Of a DNA stretch of 64,000 nucleotides, positions 14,112 through 21,751 are shown one piece after another; the first letter of the stretch is position 1, and every line of letters begins with the position of its first letter. The DNA is from Hyphomonadaceae bacterium. Lineage in GTDB: Bacteria > Pseudomonadota > Alphaproteobacteria > Caulobacterales > Aquidulcibacteraceae. The stretch covers positions 1 to 64,000 of the forward strand of contig JAIELK010000002.1 in NCBI GenBank assembly GCA_019753175.1. The letters are read 5' to 3'. Made by a program: the position numbers and the translations under genes. The notes under the pieces are model-generated. The model saw nothing but the letters and a program-made list of their open reading frames with translations, was not told where the DNA came from and ran no database searches.

Positions 14112-14918
14112 CTAACGTCGTGGGCACCGCTCATCCACGAGCGCGAGGCGTTGCGTTACAGTCATACGTTCAAGGGTCACGGTATCAGGCGTGGCGGCAG
14201 TAGCTACCAGCCACTCCTCCCCCAGGCGAATGGGCGCGTTCAGCGCACGCGTAAATGATGGGTAGCCAGCGAGCGTGAAGCGCAGGCGCACAGCCCGATA
14301 GGCCGGCCTATCGAACAGCGCCGGTTCTTGAACTGTTTCGATGGCGTCGAGAGTAAGCGCCCGAGAGAAGGCGAGAGGCGTTGAGTCCGCCGGCACAAGC
14401 ACTGCCCAATCCTGGTTGCGACCGAGCAATGGCAAATCTCGCCGCAGCCGCGGAAAAACACCGACCAGCATCGGTGGGTCGCCAACGGGTGCACGCAAAT
14501 CAGCGTAGAAAGCGCTCCGCGCGACGCCTGCGTCGTTCACTTCGCCTAGGCACACCGCACCCCGCGCACCGGTCGCGCAATAGACGGCGACAAGCTGGGA
14601 GAGCGCGTCGATCCCATGGCCCATGACGTTCATGGGCGTAAGGAGGGCACCTTCTTCCAAGCCGAGTTCTGGACGCGGAGTCGAGAGCGCGCGCATTGGA
14701 AGGGGCTGAAGCTGGAGCATCGCAACAGCCTGTCCCGCCCTGAATGTGCCGCCGGCAAAATTCTGGGAATCGGCTGTGAAGGCTTGGTGAATTCTCTCAC
14801 CCAATGGCGGAGAACTGACGGCCGGCGTGGCTGGGCACCAGTTCATTGGATCGATCTGTGCCGCCACGGGTCCACCCAGCGCCACCCAAAGCGCTGCACC
14901 AATCGCCCACACTCGCAT
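14112..14918 (-). CDS. Putative secreted protein between sucD and sucA
   Basis: A 268-residue protein with a clear signal peptide (MRVWAIGAALWVALGGPVAA, cleavage before QIDP). The mature part has four cysteines spread along it (WCPA, VYCATGARGAVCLGE, ERCPRR), suggesting disulfides in the periplasm. No catalytic motif or known domain is recognised. It starts three bases after the sucD stop and so shares its transcript. The function is unknown, and its place inside a TCA-cycle operon does not by itself imply a metabolic role. Confidence 0.65.
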   Translation of the reverse strand: MRVWAIGAALWVALGGPVAAQIDPMNWCPATPAVSSPPLGERIHQAFTADSQNFAGGTFRAGQAVAMLQLQPLPMRALSTPRPELGLEEGALLTPMNVMGHGIDALSQLVAVYCATGARGAVCLGEVNDAGVARSAFYADLRAPVGDPPMLVGVFPRLRRDLPLLGRNQDWAVLVPADSTPLAFSRALTLDAIETVQEPALFDRPAYRAVRLRFTLAGYPSFTRALNAPIRLGEEWLVATAATPDTVTLERMTVTQRLALVDERCPRR

Positions 14919-14921
14919 CGT

Positions 14922-15806
14922 CTACCCCCGCAACACCTCAGCCATCGTGCGCCCGAGCGCAGCGGGATGCGGCGCAACGCGGATCCCCGCGGCTTCCATC
15001 GCCGCGATCTTGCTTTCCGCGTCGCCTTTGCCGCCTGAGATGATTGCGCCGGCATGGCCCATGCGCCGCCCAGGCGGCGCCGTGCGCCCGGCGATGAAGC
15101 CGACCGTCGGCTTCCAGCGCCCTTTCTTCTTCTCGTCGGCAAGGAACTGCGCGGCATCTTCTTCCGCCGAGCCGCCGATCTCGCCGATCATGATGATGGC
15201 TTGCGTTTCATCATCGGCGAGGAAGCGCGTGAGCACGTCGATGAATTCCATCCCCTTCACAGGGTCTCCGCCGATGCCGACGGCGGTGGTCTGTCCCAAG
15301 CCTTCGTTCGTGGTTTGAAACACCGCTTCGTAGGTGAGCGTGCCCGAACGCGACACCACGCCGACCCTGCCCTTCTTGAAGATCTGTCCGGGCATGATGC
15401 CGATCTTGCATTCGTTCGGCGTCAGCACGCCGGGGCAATTCGGGCCGAGCAGAATAGACTTTGACGCCGCCAGCTTCGCCTTCACCCGCACCATGTCGAG
15501 CACCGGGATCCCCTCGGTGATGCAAACGATGAGCGGTATCTCCGCTTCGATCGCCTCTTCGATCGCTGCGGCGGCGCCGGGCGGCGGCACATAGATGACC
15601 GTCGCGTCGGCTCCCACATTGTCCTTGGCTTCCGCGACGCTGTTGAACACCGGCAGGCCAAGGTGGGTTTGACCGCCCTTTCCCGGACTGACGCCACCGG
15701 TCATCCGCGTGCCGTATGCGATCGCCTGTTCGGAGTGAAACGTGCCGTTCTTGCCGGTGAAGCCTTGGCAAATGACGCGCGTGGATGCGTTGACGAGAAT
15801 GGACAA
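14922..15806 (-). CDS. sucD: Succinate-CoA ligase alpha subunit
   Basis: The alpha subunit binds CoA and carries the phospho-histidine of succinyl-CoA synthetase. The 294-residue protein shows the CoA-binding start ([20 protein letters not shown]), the [10 protein letters not shown] segment, [10 protein letters not shown], and catalytic His251 in [13 protein letters not shown]. It is complete. Its beta-subunit partner sucC normally lies directly upstream, but here is 4.75 kb away at 20558-21751. sucD therefore needs its own promoter or a very long transcript that would cross opposite-strand genes. Confidence 0.97.
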
Positions 15807-15903
15807 GCGTCGCCCCGGAAAATGAAAAGCGGGGCGGTTCCTAAACCACGCTTGGCGCCTTGCCTACCCCGGCCCTCCCCACGCTGAAGAACCAATTTTT
15901 ACA

Positions 15904-15997
15904 TTTACGTGACGCCCAAATTACGTTTTTATGACGTTCGTGTGACGCTCAGATAAAGGAGGCCTCGAAGCCTCGCGCGCACGGGAGGAAACGCATC
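15904..15997 (+). promoter_or_regulatory. Upstream region of the UrcA gene with phased TGACG repeats
   Basis: An AT-richer stretch contains three TGACG copies starting at 15910, 15932 and 15943, that is 22 and 11 bases apart, on the same face of the helix. The outer ones extend to GTGACGC. Direct repeats with 11-base spacing are typical binding sites of OmpR/PhoB-type response regulators. A GGGAGGAAACG ribosome site follows just before the ATG at 15998. The regulator is not identified, and no experimentally known box was matched with certainty. Confidence 0.45.
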
Positions 15998-16321
15998 ATG
16001 AACAAGCCGCTTGTTTTTGTGTTGGTTTCTGTCGTCAGCCTGGGTGCGTTTCCGGCCTTAGCGGATGAGCGCGCGGCCGGCGGCAACATGGTGTCGGTTC
16101 GCTATGCCGACCTCGACCCGTCACAAACGGAAGACGCCTCCACCCTGCTCGCGCGACTGCGCCGCGCCGCGGACGCCGCTTGCACGCCATCGGAAGCCGC
16201 CAGCAGCAACGCACGGCTCAACCATTCCGTCGAGGCGTGCAAGGCGGACGCATTGGACCGGGTCGTCGCTGCGCTCGATCGACGGGAACTGTCCCGCTTG
16301 TACGCGGCTGATCGGCGCTAA
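15998..16321 (+). CDS. UrcA-family secreted protein
   Basis: A 107-residue protein with a signal peptide (cleavage after FPALA, about residue 23) and the UrcA-family pattern: VSVRYADLDPS, a helical RLRRAADAACTPS segment with a conserved cysteine, and VEACKADALDRVVAAL with the second cysteine. UrcA proteins are small periplasmic proteins common in Caulobacterales and sphingomonads; the founding member is uranium-induced in Caulobacter. Biochemical function is unknown. It lies on the plus strand between sucD and sucC and has its own repeat-containing upstream region. Confidence 0.85.
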   Translation: MNKPLVFVLVSVVSLGAFPALADERAAGGNMVSVRYADLDPSQTEDASTLLARLRRAADAACTPSEAASSNARLNHSVEACKADALDRVVAALDRRELSRLYAADRR

Positions 16322-16407
16322 CGTCGTTTTCCCTGACTTCCCAGCACCTTGGCGCTGCTCGACAGCCCGCTTAAGTTGTGCCACCGTTCCAAGGGTGGGG
16401 GGAGACG

Positions 16408-17085
16408 ATGATCAGACATCTCGTAGCGTTCGTTGCGCTGGCGTTCCTGTCAGCCTGCGCGGTGACCAATACAGCCACGTTCTCAGGTGAGTTCGAACCA
16501 CCGCCCGCAAACTCGCGGGTGCTCGTGATGACGCCCAACGTGCAGCTTCACGTCCTTACCGCGGCCGGAATGCCGGAACCGCGCGAGGACTGGTCGATCG
16601 CCGGGCGAGACAACCTCGCCGCCACGGTCGCCACGTTTGTGCAGACCGAAGCTCACACCCCGAGCGCGCTGGACCCCTCCACCGCGATGGAAGGCCGCGT
16701 GGGTCAAATCATTCGTCTGCACGATGCGGTGGGCGAATCGCTGGTGTCGCGCGGGTTTCTGCCGACACAGCGCGACCGTTTCGAATGGACGCTCGGCGAA
16801 GGCGTTCGCGAACTGGGCGCCGCGCACAATGCCGACTACGCTTTGTTCATTGGCGCCTACGGCACCTACGCCAGCGCCGGGCGCGTGGCGATGATGGTCG
16901 GCATGTCTTTGCTCGGCGTTGGAATTCCTCTCGGGAACCAAGTCGCTTACGCCTCGCTTGTCGATCTTCGCACCGGCAACATCATTTGGTTCAACACCGT
17001 GGTCGCGGCGCCCAACCAAGACATGCGGGACCCTGACGGCGCCGCCGCTCTCACCGAGTCGCTCATGAAGGATGCGCCGCTGTGA
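16408..17085 (+). CDS. Putative lipoprotein, first gene of an M48 protease operon
   Basis: A 225-residue protein with a lipoprotein signal ending in the lipobox LSAC (Cys17). The middle carries an Ala-rich, partly hydrophobic stretch (GRVAMMVGMSLLGVGIPLG), then ASLVDLRTGNIIWFNTVV. This beta hairpin is like those in CsgG/LPP20-type outer-membrane lipoproteins that describe a value in the envelope, but similarity is too weak to assign a family. The ATG at 16408 has a GGGGGGAGACG ribosome site and begins directly at the signal. Its stop overlaps the GTG of the downstream metalloprotease by four bases, so the two are translationally coupled. Confidence 0.7.
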   Translation: MIRHLVAFVALAFLSACAVTNTATFSGEFEPPPANSRVLVMTPNVQLHVLTAAGMPEPREDWSIAGRDNLAATVATFVQTEAHTPSALDPSTAMEGRVGQIIRLHDAVGESLVSRGFLPTQRDRFEWTLGEGVRELGAAHNADYALFIGAYGTYASAGRVAMMVGMSLLGVGIPLGNQVAYASLVDLRTGNIIWFNTVVAAPNQDMRDPDGAAALTESLMKDAPL

Positions 17086-18335
17086 AGCACGCCCTCGTCG
17101 CCGCGGCGACGCTTTGGTTGTTGCCGGCCTTAGCGTGGGCGCAAGAGACGCAACCTGCTGGAGCACCGAGCGAACAAGCGCCTGCCGCTGTTGTTCAACA
17201 AGCATCACCGGAGCCGTCGCCGCTCCCCGCGCCGGCGCCCTCCCGCACGCGACCGGATATCACCACCGATGAAGGCGGGCTTTGGGGGATGTCGGATCGC
17301 GCCGAGATCGAGGCGCGCGCCTCAGGCCAGCTTGAGAGCGATCCCGCGCTCAACGCCTACCTGCGCGCGGTCGCTTGTCGCGTGGCGGCAGCGCACTGCG
17401 GCGACATCCGCCTCTATGTGATGAACCGGCCGTACTTCAACGCACAGATGGCCCCGAACGGCTATATGGAAGTCTGGTCAGGATTGTTGTTGCGCGCCGA
17501 AAACGAGGCCCAGCTGGCCTTCGTGCTCGGCCACGAAGTCGGGCACTACAGCGAGCGCCACTCGCTGTCGATGTTGCGAACCATACGCGGGCGCTCCAAT
17601 GCCGCCGCTGTGTTTTCGATCATCACAGCGGTCGCTGGCGTTCCGATCGTTGGCGATATTGTCTATCTCGGCACGATCGCATCTGTCTTCGGCTTCTCGC
17701 GGGAAAAAGAGCTACAGGCCGATACGATCGGTTTCGACCGTGCGATCGAGGCCGGTTATGATCCCACCGCCGGCGAGACGCTCTGGAACAATCTGATTGC
17801 GGAGACGCGCGCGTCCGACAATCCGGATGTCCGCCGCCAAGAGACGCGCGGCAGCGTGTTTCGCACGCACCCGCTGTCAGCGGATCGAATCGCCGCGCTT
17901 TCGGAACGGGCAGCACAATCCAGCGGCGGACAAACCCATCGCGAGCGCTACCGGGCGGCGATCCGGCCGTTTCTCGACGAGTGGCTGCGCGCGGACCTTC
18001 GCAGGCGCGACTACGGACAGACATCGCTTGTCCTGGACCGGCTAGCCGCGCACGGCGAGGACCTCGGCACGGTCGAGTACTATCGCGGCGAGATCAATCG
18101 CATCCGGCGCGGCGAAGGTGATCGCGAACGCGCCATCCAACACTACACCAATGCAATCGCGCATCCGGATGCGCCGGCGGCCGCGTGGCGTGAGCTGGGT
18201 GAATACGCTGCACGCGACAACCGCAACGCGGAAGCCGCTCAGTTTTTCCGCACCTATCTCGAGCGCGCGCCGGACGCAGGCGATCGCGCGCTCGTCGAGG
18301 CGCGCTTGGCTCAATTGCCGGGAGGGGGACAATGA
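17082..18335 (+). CDS. M48-family periplasmic metalloprotease with C-terminal TPR-like region
   Basis: A 417-residue secreted zinc metalloprotease. A signal peptide (cleaved after about Ala20) is followed by a Pro/Ala-rich linker, then the M48 domain with HEVGH at 151-155 and the third ligand in the downstream [12 protein letters not shown] segment. The C-terminal part after about 290 is helical and repeat-like ([38 protein letters not shown]), resembling TPRs. This layout recalls BepA/YfgC, which degrades misassembled outer-membrane proteins. Start is GTG at 17082, overlapping the upstream stop; its own stop overlaps the next gene by ATGA. I infer envelope quality control together with the two flanking lipoproteins. 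Confidence 0.85.
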
Positions 18336-18916
18336 ACATCACACGTCGTCGGCTTTTCGCCGCAGCAGCTGGCGCGGCGCTACTATCGGGCTGCGCGAGC
18401 ATTACGCTTGCGGAGGCCGGGTCCTATAAGGTCGAACGCGCGTTTTCGGTCACGTTCACGCGGTCTTGGTCCGATCTCACAGCGGCGGTGGTTCCGCGGA
18501 CGCCGGGCGTCCGCAATCTCACGCGTGACGGCCGCACCCTCAACGATCTCTATCTCGGCTCGATTGCCCCAGGCGGCTCGCTGTTCAGGCCCGCCGACCG
18601 CGACACGCCCGCCGTGACCTATCGCGCTGACATGAGCGACACCGAGTTGGTTGAGTTTGTGATCGACAGTCTGGCGACGGTTTATCAGGAGCCGCAGTCG
18701 ACGGCGCTGCGTCCGCAAACCCTGGCCGGCGATGCTGGCGTTCGCTTCGACATCAGCGCCCGGCGCGAGACCGGTCTCAACATTTCTGGCGCCGCGCTGG
18801 TCGCGCGCCAGGGCGACACGCTCAATCTGATCGTGTTCCTGGCGCCGAGCGAGCACTATTACGGCGCCTACTCGGCCGAGATCGACGCGATCATGGCGAG
18901 CGCGACCCGCGCTTAG
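18332..18916 (+). CDS. Putative lipoprotein, last gene of the M48 protease operon
   Basis: A 194-residue protein with an Arg-rich n-region (MNITRRRLF), a hydrophobic stretch, and lipobox LSGC giving lipidated Cys21. The mature part contains a repeated theme of beta strands ([46 protein letters not shown]) and no known domain. The start overlaps the protease stop by four bases. It is probably a substrate, adaptor or partner of the M48 protease in the envelope. Confidence 0.7.
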
Positions 18917-18921
18917 GGGCG

Positions 18922-19290
18922 TCAGCCCATCATGAAGGCGTTGAGCTTGTTGCCGTCCGGGTCGCGGAAATACGCGGCGTAAAAGCCGTCGCTGCGCGGG
19001 CCGGGCGGGCCTTCGTCCGTGCCGCCATTGGCGAGCGCGATCTCGTAAAGGCGATGGATCTGCTCTTTGCTCTTGCACTCGATCGCGACCATGACGCCGT
19101 TGCCGACGGTCGCCGCTTCGCCATTGAACGGCTTGGTGAGGCCGATGCCGGCGCCCGCGCCCGGCGTCCCCCAGGCGATCGCGCCCGGCCATTCCATCAT
19201 GCGCTTGGTGCCGAGCTCGGCGGCGATGGCGTCGTAGAATCTGGCCGCGCGTTCAAGGTCGTTGGTGCCGAGTGTGACGTAACCGATCAT
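18922..19290 (-). CDS. VOC-family (glyoxalase/bleomycin-resistance-like) protein
   Basis: A 122-residue single-module vicinal-oxygen-chelate protein: GYVTLGTNDLERAARFYDAI at the start, AWGTPGAGAGIGLTKPF, and the C-terminal YAAYFRDPDGNKLNAFMMG that normally supplies a metal-ligand strand. The expected C-terminal Glu is replaced (DGNKLNAF), so metal binding is doubtful. Such short proteins are frequent in alphaproteobacteria and their substrates are mostly unknown. Convergent with the M48 operon. Confidence 0.82.
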   Translation of the reverse strand: MIGYVTLGTNDLERAARFYDAIAAELGTKRMMEWPGAIAWGTPGAGAGIGLTKPFNGEAATVGNGVMVAIECKSKEQIHRLYEIALANGGTDEGPPGPRSDGFYAAYFRDPDGNKLNAFMMG

Positions 19291-19335
19291 GGGGGCTCCT
19301 CCAGATCGCGAAACTAGCAGCGGAGGACGGCAACG

Positions 19336-19647
19336 TCATTCTGGTTTCTTGCTCATGATCGCGTCTCGATCCTGGGCCGCGTGAAGGATACGCAGCACTT
19401 CGACCCTTTGGTCATGGACCTGAACATAGAGGACATACGGTCCGGACACATGGAACCGCACACCCTCGCCGAACTCTGGGCGCAGACCGCCCGAATAAGG
19501 CATGCGCTCGATGTTCGCCAACGTCGTGCGAATGCGCTTGACCACGCGACTTGAAACCGCCGGGCCGGCTTCCCGCAACAAGTACTCACGAATACCAGCC
19601 AGATCGCTCAGCGCCAACGCCGAGAGATGAACCGGCAGTCGCCGCAC
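19336..19647 (-). CDS. RelE/ParE-family toxin
   Basis: A 103-residue protein of the ParE/RelE fold: LSALALSDLAGIREYLL helix 1, SSRVVKRIRTTLANIE helix 2, PYSGGLRPEFGEGVRFHVSGPYVLYV sheet, and VEVLRILHAAQDRD at the C-terminus. ParE toxins inhibit DNA gyrase while RelE toxins cut mRNA on the ribosome; the PYVLYV-VLRILHAAQD pattern fits ParE better. It follows the antitoxin gene with a 3-base gap in the same operon. Confidence 0.85.
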   Translation of the reverse strand: MRRLPVHLSALALSDLAGIREYLLREAGPAVSSRVVKRIRTTLANIERMPYSGGLRPEFGEGVRFHVSGPYVLYVQVHDQRVEVLRILHAAQDRDAIMSKKPE

Positions 19648-19650
19648 GCA

Positions 19651-19920
19651 TTACTCCGCCGCGCTGAGCAAGGCCTTTGCGGCGGCCTCGTCCGCAGCGA
19701 TCCAGGAATCGATCTGCTTGAATGCATCGTCCAGCGAAACGCCCTCGCCGCGGGCGAGGCTGGCGCGGGCTTCGTCGAGCTTGCCGCGTACATATTCAAT
19801 CTCAGCGCGACGCTCCTGGAGCGCTTGCGCGACCAGCGCCTCAACGCTTTCCGCGCGTCCGGCGGCGACTTCGGCGCGGGCCCAGGCGAGCAGATCGGGC
19901 GGTAGAGTGATGGCGGTCAT
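19651..19920 (-). CDS. ParD-like antitoxin
   Basis: An 89-residue protein: an N-terminal ribbon-helix-helix-like region (AITLPPDLLAWARAEVAAGR, then SVEALVAQALQERR) for DNA binding, followed by a helical toxin-binding part rich in Ala and acidic residues. It lies directly upstream of the ParE-like toxin. The ATG at 19920 is preferred over an in-frame TTG nine bases upstream because it starts at the conserved strand; neither has a clear ribosome site. The pair forms a second toxin-antitoxin unit in the window. Confidence 0.8.
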   Translation of the reverse strand: MTAITLPPDLLAWARAEVAAGRAESVEALVAQALQERRAEIEYVRGKLDEARASLARGEGVSLDDAFKQIDSWIAADEAAAKALLSAAE

Positions 19921-19967
19921 TGGCGACAATTAACACGAAACCAAAAGGCGGTCACGGCACCTGCTGG

Positions 19968-20555
19968 TCAGGAAGCGGGCTCGACTCGGTTCACGACGCT
20001 ATAGTTTATCGCGGAACCATTGCGGTCGCCGATGACTTGGACGAAGCCAAAGCGCCTGGCATTCGCTGCCGCTGCGCGAGCGTCCTCGCTAAGTGAAGCT
20101 CCGTTTGCGAACCCGCCCGCGTCATCGCGGACGTAGGCGAACATGTCGCCACCCGGTCCCCACGTCTGAAAGCGATCGAAGCCCAGCCAGGCACGAACGT
20201 CGCGCACTTGGCGTCGAAAAGAAACGCCTTCAGCCACAAGACAAAATCTTGCGCGCGCCTCGCCTTGTCCAAAAGGCCCCTCTCCGAGCACGATCAATCC
20301 GTCCCCGCCGGGCGGCGCCCAGGCCTGGGTCGTGGTCCAGTGCATCACAAAGCCCGAGACCAAGTCCCACGACGGATTTTGTACACGTTCCGCGTCATCC
20401 AGCCGCCGCCAGTTCTGCGCGGCCAAACTCGCAGAAATCGCTTCGACATCGGCGTCGCGCGCCGCACATGTCGATCGCACGAGATCAACCGCAGTCGTGG
20501 CATTCGCGACGCTTGGTGTCAGAAGCAGCGCGAACGCGACAATAATCGCTCGCAT
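19968..20555 (-). CDS. Secreted protein of unknown function downstream of sucC
   Basis: A 195-residue protein with a signal peptide ([19 protein letters not shown]). The mature part has two cysteines (RSTCAAR and ARFCLVAEG), possibly a disulfide, and no recognised domain. It begins only two bases after the sucC stop, so it is transcribed and probably translated with sucC. The function is unknown. Confidence 0.65.
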
Positions 20556-20557
20556 GA

Positions 20558-21751
20558 CTACCCCTTCACAGCCTTCACGATCTTGCGCGCGGCGTCTTCG
20601 AGATCATCCGCGCTGATGACGTTCAGCCCGCTCTCGTTGATGATCTGCTTGCCGAGCTCGACATTCGTGCCCTCGAGGCGCACCACCAACGGCACGGCGA
20701 GACCCACCTCCTTCACCGCGGCGATCACGCCTTCGGCGATCACGTCGCATTTCATGATACCGCCGAAAATGTTCACCAGGATGCCTTTCACTTTCGGGTC
20801 GGCAGTGATGATTTTGAACGCGGCCGTCACTTTTTCTTTCGAGGCGCCGCCGCCGACATCGAGGAAGTTCGCGGGCTCGGCGCCGAACAGTTTGATGATG
20901 TCCATCGTCGCCATGGCGAGACCCGCCCCATTCACCATGCAGCCGATATCGCCATCGAGCGCGATGTAAGCGAGATCGTACTTGGAGGCCTCGATCTCCT
21001 TTTCATCTTCTTCGCCGAGATCGCGCAGCTCTTCCCACTCGGGATGACGGAACGAAGCGTTGGAATCGAAGCCGACCTTGGCGTCGGCGCAGATGAGCTT
21101 GCCGTCTTCGGTGACGATCAGCGGATTGATTTCGAGCAGGCTCATGTCGCTTTTCACGAACGCGTCGTAGAGCTTGGTCACGATATCGGCGCACTGCTCG
21201 GCTTGATCGCCCGACACGCCGAACGCGGCGGCGACCTTTTCGGCGTCAGCGCGCGTCGGGCCGGTCATCGGATCGATCGGCACGGTGGTGATCTTCTCCG
21301 GCGTATCGTGCGCGACTTCTTCGATGTTCATGCCGCCTGCTTCGCTGGCGACGAACGCGACCCGGCCCGACTCGCGATCCACCAAAGCCGAGAGATAGAA
21401 TTCCTTGGCGATCTTGACGCCCTCTTCGATGTAGAGGCGCTTGACCACCCGCCCGGCAGCGCCAGTTTGCAGCGTCACCAGCGTGTTGCCCAACATCTGT
21501 TGCGCGTAGAGGCCGACATCTTCCGGCTTGAAGGCGATGCGCACGCCGCCCTTTTCGCCGGCGCTCGGCTCCTTGAATTTGCCCTTGCCGCGGCCGCCGG
21601 CGTGGATCTGGCTCTTCACCGCCCAGACCGAGCCGCCGAGTTTGGCGGCGGCGTCCACTGCTTCGTCCGCCGTGTAGGCCGCAAATCCGCGCGGGACCGG
21701 GACCCCGAAGCTCTTCAGCAGCGCCTTGCCTTGGTATTCGTGGATGTTCAT
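20558..21751 (-). CDS. sucC: Succinate-CoA ligase beta subunit
   Basis: The beta subunit binds the nucleotide and succinate in succinyl-CoA synthetase. The 397-residue protein begins with [12 protein letters not shown], has the ATP-grasp region ([17 protein letters not shown]), [40 protein letters not shown], and the C-terminal CoA-ligase domain ending with [19 protein letters not shown]. It is complete. The alpha partner sucD, usually the very next gene, lies 4.75 kb downstream beyond inserted genes. chrA ends 28 bases before the start. Confidence 0.97.

Follow-up and report, generated by a model that had tools for sequence, protein, structure and literature searches.

Three adjacent genes, hereafter A, B and C, very probably constitute a real, so far unnamed envelope system of many distantly related Gram-negative bacteria, in which a secreted M48 metalloprotease (B) is encoded between two predicted lipoproteins (A and C). 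The trio was recognized in the window, i.e., the 64,000-nucleotide stretch of Hyphomonadaceae DNA analysed here. With a probability of about one in two, A-B-C is an outer-membrane-facing proteolytic module, in which A and C would anchor and position a plug-gated B that trims or removes envelope proteins. In E. coli, M48 proteases guard outer-membrane assembly, and the bepA and loiP genes stand without such partner genes. M48 envelope proteases are known as a kind. New here are the dedicated partners, a separate M48 clade and its wide distribution: an M48 subfamily of its own is accompanied by two proteins unrecognized by Pfam in several proteobacterial classes, and it persists even where genomes are very small. 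Once the trio is treated as a single unit, its role becomes directly testable and two unnamed protein families acquire a context.

Organization and recurrence of the A-B-C unit

The three genes lie on the forward strand and overlap each other by four bases (Table 1), as the initial annotation had reported. The lipobox guided the choice of the ATG as the start of A; as called mechanically, the ORF begins with a GTG at 16378. Elsewhere, four-base overlaps are common but not fixed, since they were found at 42 of 82 A-B junctions and 49 of 83 B-C junctions in the named loci described below, as counted with script-chosen start codons. No sigma-70-like site was found ahead of A within 15780-19350, the sole site of this interval being located inside B, at chance level. 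The same interval contains five terminator-like sites against 2.9 expected, a weak signal, one of them at the end of the UrcA gene (16313-16326).

Table 1. Features of the A-B-C locus in the window
Feature	Position	Strand	Basis
UrcA	15998-16321	+	NCBIfam 45.4 bits, cut-off 25
Gene A, lipoprotein, 225 aa	16408-17085	+	ORF
Lipobox LSAC of A, Cys17	16447-16458	+	sequence
A residues 157-173, conserved hydrophobic helix and turn after the RDSYASxGR consensus	16876-16926	+	family-averaged hydropathy
Overlap of A and B, four bases, GTGA	17082-17085	+	sequence
Gene B, secreted M48 metalloprotease with short TPR-like tail, 417 aa	17082-18335	+	GTG start
HEVGH zinc-binding motif, B residues 151-155	17532-17546	+	sequence
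ExxxD with third zinc ligand Glu210	17709-17723	+	sequence
HPx4R active-site plug, His263	17868-17888	+	aligned with BepA THPLPESR
Weak TPR-like match, B residues 343-399	18108-18278	+	Pfam TPR_16 E 1e-6, below cut-off
Overlap of B and C, four bases, ATGA	18332-18335	+	sequence
Gene C, lipoprotein, 194 aa	18332-18916	+	ATG start
Lipobox LSGC of C, Cys21	18383-18394	+	sequence

Co-inheritance of A and C was followed in four draws of genomes. In the order, the A and C of the window were used as queries against 150 genomes, including its own; A was found in 30 genomes and C in 26, with both present in 26, A alone in four, C alone in none and neither in 120. A same-direction M48 gene lies between A and C in 25 of the 26 genomes with C, a count that includes one genome (G049) whose A was missed by tblastn and is known from the search with the A query. 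In the four genomes with A only, the hit is a diverged protein of 198-208 aa, in which the match covers about 70-80 residues. Among 337 genomes of the class (own genome included), A occurs in 25 and C in 24, distributed as 24 with both, one with A only, none with C only and 312 with neither; in one genome (G303), A is merely a weak match, located on another contig. Besides the genome of the window, 23 genomes of the class have C; loci were examined for 21 of these (all except G190 and G279), and B scored 307-410 bits in every one. At the level of the phylum (299 genomes, own genome included), four genomes encode both A and C, none encodes only one of them and 295 encode neither. Finally, in the class of genome G677 (185 genomes), A was found in six genomes and C in seven, with six containing both, none A only, one C only and 178 neither. 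B scored 197-394 bits in all six genomes with A and C, and in the genome with C alone the hit is a weak fragment. Fisher tests of A-C co-occurrence gave p values from 8e-36 to 3e-9 over the four draws, in which independence is overstated because the genomes are related. The initial annotation had named as a refutation the occurrence of the lipoproteins without the protease in most genomes; the opposite was seen in every draw examined.

A scan of named genomes with a B alignment retrieved at least 424 confirmed relatives, of which the best 80 were taken. The order A-B-C was found in 78 of these 80 loci, the other two lacking C (L120) or A (L174) where the contig ends. The loci span Alpha-, Beta- and Gammaproteobacteria and one Myxococcales MAG, and their hosts include Caulobacter, Brevundimonas, Asticcacaulis, Maricaulis, Parvularculaceae, Sneathiella, a Pelagibacteraceae MAG, Lysobacter, Luteimonas, Thermomonas, Nitrococcus, Alteromonas, Cellvibrio, Polaromonas, Ramlibacter, Caenimonas, Roseateles and Limnohabitans, among others. 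Because the trio recurs in this way, both in the order (25 of 26) and in these best 80 of at least 424 relatives (78 of 80), chance adjacency is excluded, and the proposal of a fixed three-gene unit is borne out as far as gene order is concerned. The whole module is duplicated in tandem in four of the 80 loci (L131, L142, L152, in which one B is frameshifted, and L159). Over 69 loci, Mantel tests between the distance matrices of A, B and C gave r values of 0.72-0.80, a correlation for which vertical descent is sufficient. In RefSeq, the trio carried by a Sphingobium plasmid is labelled hypothetical protein, M48 family metallopeptidase and hypothetical protein.

The module is nevertheless patchy, being present in 7 of 12 genomes of the same genus, and is hence dispensable rather than essential in general. 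B is kept in five of six genomes of one family with assemblies of 0.6-1.1 Mb (54-89% complete), a persistence that fits housekeeping better than specialised export, bearing in mind that the assemblies are incomplete.

Reduced forms were found in two genomes. In G132, full-length A and C overlap directly by four bases with no B between them; the six M48 matches of this genome score 39-100 bits, under every module B seen (minima of 197 bits with A and C and of 170 bits in a B-C pair). The A-C pair of G132 (L017) adjoins sucD as in the window, with SucD proteins 90% identical, and B was therefore probably lost there. In G900, contig 23 (L210) carries a second, diverged B-C pair; this genome also encodes a full A-B-C, and a single A was found in it. 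The two cases speak against a strictly obligate trio, since it can be reduced, and point to C as the element in common. No fusion among A, B and C was seen; a 600-aa frame running from B to C in L152 was rejected as a fusion, as it corresponds to a frameshifted B that continues in the frame of C.

Apparent interruptions of module genes occur in three loci, owing either to assembly errors or to decay. In G137 (L037), C contains an in-frame TAA; in Brevundimonas terrae (L116), B is split between two ORFs; and in Ramlibacter montanisoli (L152), where the module is duplicated in tandem, one B is frameshifted.

The neighbours of A-B-C differ from lineage to lineage. In the window, a UrcA gene precedes A at a distance of 86 bases, as noted initially, but it is not part of the unit: UrcA was found in 2 of 110 sequences (80 named and 30 order-level loci), namely in the genome of the window itself and in G137, where it lies downstream of the module. 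UrcA was accordingly rejected as a module member. No flanking gene recurs across lineages as a candidate substrate, the widest flank cluster reaching 9 of the 80 loci (clusters partly named). A mobile or defence element has little support, since the surroundings vary by lineage and among 72,556 plasmid records A has two matches, on an Azospirillum replicon of 1.9 Mb and on a Sphingobium plasmid of 648 kb; a PHROGs search with A and C returned no match.

In the window, sucD (14922-15806, minus strand) and sucC (20558-21751, minus strand) are separated by about 4.75 kb. In addition to UrcA and A-B-C, which are on the opposite strand, this gap contains a glyoxalase-like gene, a ParE toxin gene and small ORFs. 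The ParE gene (19336-19929, minus strand; Pfam E 2.3e-16) has upstream of it a putative antitoxin ORF of 92 aa with no Pfam match. Two minus-strand genes, 14112-14918 and 19968-20555, adjoin sucD and sucC and encode secreted-looking proteins of 268 and 195 aa with no Pfam match. sucD is also located upstream of the module in L096-L100 and in G132 (L017), and sucC downstream in L097-L100.

Properties of the three proteins

B belongs to the M48 family (Pfam Peptidase_M48, PF01435: E 2.6e-27, 96.3 bits for a cut-off of 20.3) and matches the BepA structure 6sar in a phmmer search (2.6e-16). Its N-terminus carries a signal peptidase I-like signal (AWA-Q) followed by a proline-rich linker, and its TPR matches, around residues 343-399, are all below the Pfam cut-offs. 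By alignment, His263 occupies the 'His switch' position of BepA His246. The HExxH, ExxxD and HPx4R motifs are each present in 83 of 83 module B proteins (the window and 82 from the named loci). Given this conservation and the precedent of the BepA plug, B is very probably a regulated zinc protease, its activity being predicted from these residues. The plug was also found in 18 of 18 other M48 proteins; it is thus general in M48 and nothing special about the module.

The signal of B varies among the module proteins: a lipobox-like signal is present in 26 of 82, and 15 of 82 (L129, L131, L147, L148 and L159 among them), mostly betaproteobacterial, start with a twin-arginine-like signal (RRx[FL]). 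The latter would mean that the zinc protease is exported folded.

As judged by sequence, B forms a discrete M48 subfamily. The genome of the window encodes nine M48 genes. A B profile gave 342.6-583.2 bits for the 83 module proteins versus 27.0-102.7 for 18 other M48 proteins, a gap favoured by the training of the profile on the module proteins of the order. The comparison set comprised seven proteins from this genome, nine from relatives and the E. coli BepA and LoiP, leaving aside the eighth other M48 of the genome (L182) and two from relatives (L184, L200). The set of 82 locus proteins was drawn from 87 profile hits, without a TPR protein (L110), the two halves of the split B (L116) and the two frames of the frameshifted B (L152). 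Outside the set of 83, module B proteins score as low as the 197 and 170 bits given above, so that the gap persists, though it is smaller. A tree of 46 M48 domains places 28 module B proteins (the window and 27 of the 82) on one side of a branch with support of 100/99, opposite the same 18 others, several of which are long-branched.

The initial annotation had described A and C as lipoproteins with no clear family. Both have a lipobox in the window, but across the families the cysteine is constant in C alone (77 of 77 rows) and present in 41 of 70 rows of A, being absent in the other 29. Compared with A and with the lipobox-like signals of B, C is hence the constant anchor of the module, with lipidation predicted from its signal. 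The LSGC lipobox of C sits behind a twin-arginine-like start (TRRRLF). The absence of a clear family holds at the level of sequence, but both proteins have recognizable predicted folds.

For C, no Pfam or NCBIfam model scored above its cut-off with the window protein. When the 77 members (the window and 76 of 83 locus proteins, after length and 85% similarity filters) were compared with Pfam at E 0.01, no PsbP- or DcrB-type family was matched, and the sole matches were a lipobox model (two members) and YqeH-like_C (two members, best E 0.0027). The AlphaFold2 model built from these 77 rows has a pLDDT of 95.6, and its best match in a fold search is the cyanobacterial PsbP 2xb3 (Z 14.3, rmsd 2.8 over 143 residues), followed by Mog1, SciW/EagT6, LpqN and DcrB (Z 11.4 for SciW and 10.9 for DcrB), at about 7-16% identity. 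C is thus predicted to have a PsbP/Mog1/DcrB-like fold, a common fold being no proof of function. The order-level alignment of C (A2) was made without the C of G137, which contains the in-frame TAA.

Similarly, the window A is above the cut-off of no Pfam or NCBIfam model, and the 70 members of its family (the window and 69 of 82 locus proteins, with the same type of length and 85% similarity filters) gave no credible Pfam match and one spurious one. The AlphaFold2 model from these 70 rows has a pLDDT of 93.0. The best fold match is PelC (Z 11.8, rmsd 3.1 over 132 residues, 9-14% identity to the PelC chains), followed by FlgT, HpaA, TolB-N, TraT, GNA1162, CsgG, which forms a ring, and LpoB. 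A PelC/CsgG/TraT/TolB-N-like fold is accordingly predicted for A, with the same proviso regarding function. Residues 157-173 have the highest hydrophobicity in the mature protein, and residues 157-167 form a helix in the AlphaFold2 model. The order-level alignment of A (A1) was made without the A of G049 and without four A-like proteins of 198-208 aa.

Distant A-like lipoproteins of this size occur in a single other genus, in four of its genomes (L027, L028, L029, L030), where each is encoded directly before another ORF; in both cases checked (L027, L028), that ORF is a family 2 glycosyltransferase. The A-like protein of L028 has no Pfam match.

Possible roles of the module

In the favoured reading, C, with its constant lipobox, and A, which is often lipidated, would anchor and position B at the periplasmic face of the outer membrane. 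C would hold the protease there, A would act as a scaffold, and B would be held in check by its HPx4R plug. There, B would trim or remove a specific class of envelope proteins, in quality control or in maturation, as BepA does with stalled LptD. This reading infers the outer-membrane location, the physical complex, the gating by the plug and the class of substrates from the gene order, co-inheritance, conserved residues, lipidation signals and predicted folds observed above. More tentatively, A may form a ring like PelC or TraT with the tail of B docked inside, comparable to the TPRs of PelB in PelC and to the TPR domain of BepA in BAM, and C may, by analogy with its fold-mates, the Eag chaperones, handle a hydrophobic segment. 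Taken together as a new outer-membrane machine, with a membrane-dipping helix in the ring of A, the protease facing the lumen and C feeding or shielding hydrophobic clients, these steps make up a rather unlikely picture. If true, it would represent a second, BAM-independent site of protein disposal or maturation in the envelopes of many Proteobacteria.

The fold of A also speaks for an export or surface-assembly complex, in which A would be a PelC/CsgG-like ring, B would mature the cargo and C would be an assembly factor, with no role in quality control. PelC, CsgG and TraT are among the best fold matches of A, and the distant A-like lipoproteins precede an ORF in four genomes, a family 2 glycosyltransferase in both cases checked. 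However, flanking genes recur in no more than 9 of 80 loci (clusters partly named), B is retained in genomes of about 1 Mb, and LpoB and TolB, which share the fold of A, serve other roles, so that an export function seems doubtful. Equally doubtful is the idea that A and C are substrates of B or control it (as an inhibitor, an activator or a sensor) and form no stable anchor complex with it. The retention of the M48 plug in B implies a regulated opening and the three genes are tightly co-inherited, both as expected for control proteins, but mere control proteins should decay after the loss of B, and A and C of G132 are still full length. Least probable, in our view, are independent envelope genes co-transcribed under one promoter with no direct interaction between their products. 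Adjacency is no proof of interaction and no fusion was seen; against this, order and composition persist over several proteobacterial classes in differing surroundings, the module is duplicated in tandem as a whole, and the A, B and C distances correlate, although descent alone can give such a correlation.

Comparison with known systems

No description of the A-B-C trio was found in the titles and abstracts of the open-licence PMC literature, among the matches listed. The closest known protein is BepA (YfgC), to which B had initially been likened in layout. B shares with it the M48 domain, the zinc ligands and the HPx4R plug. BepA has a C-terminal domain with four TPR motifs, and B shows, after its protease domain, a tail with a TPR-like signal below the Pfam cut-offs. 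The likeness in catalytic layout thus stands, in features that are general in M48, but B belongs to a separate subfamily. On the NCBIfam BepA model (NF052400), it scores 84 bits for a cut-off of 570, over the M48 part only (residues 77-281), and another M48 protein of this genome reaches 185 bits over most of the model. B was therefore rejected as a BepA orthologue, also in view of the profile score gap and of its separate side of the tree. Judged from gene lengths, the tail of B is shorter. The gene settings differ too, with B flanked by two dedicated envelope-protein genes and E. coli bepA followed by yfgD. PMC8423444 and PMC7950410 describe BepA as the M48 protease of the BAM complex, which handles stalled LptD and whose TPR domain lies in the BAM ring; proteolysis is repressed by the zinc-binding His246 of its plug, and activity requires the plug to move.

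B also resembles LoiP and YcaL, the outer-membrane M48 lipoproteases of E. coli, in having an M48 domain with a plug and, in 26 of 82 module proteins, a lipobox-like signal. It differs in scoring 35.9 bits on the LoiP model (cut-off 365); LoiP, at 252 aa, has no room for a B-type tail, and its gene is annotated next to tktA and speB.

The predicted fold of A is that of PelC, the ring lipoprotein of Pel export in the outer membrane, but A has 9-14% identity to it with no sequence-family match, and a ring of A is putative. As described in PMC12141448, a PelC ring of twelve holds the TPR domains of PelB, and TraT is an outer-membrane decamer according to PMC11733297. C shares its predicted fold with PsbP, Mog1, DcrB, LpqN and the Eag proteins (SciW, EagT6), but its identity to them is about 7-16%, with no family-level Pfam match. 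The Eag proteins are chaperones of type VI secretion, whereas C is predicted to be an envelope lipoprotein.
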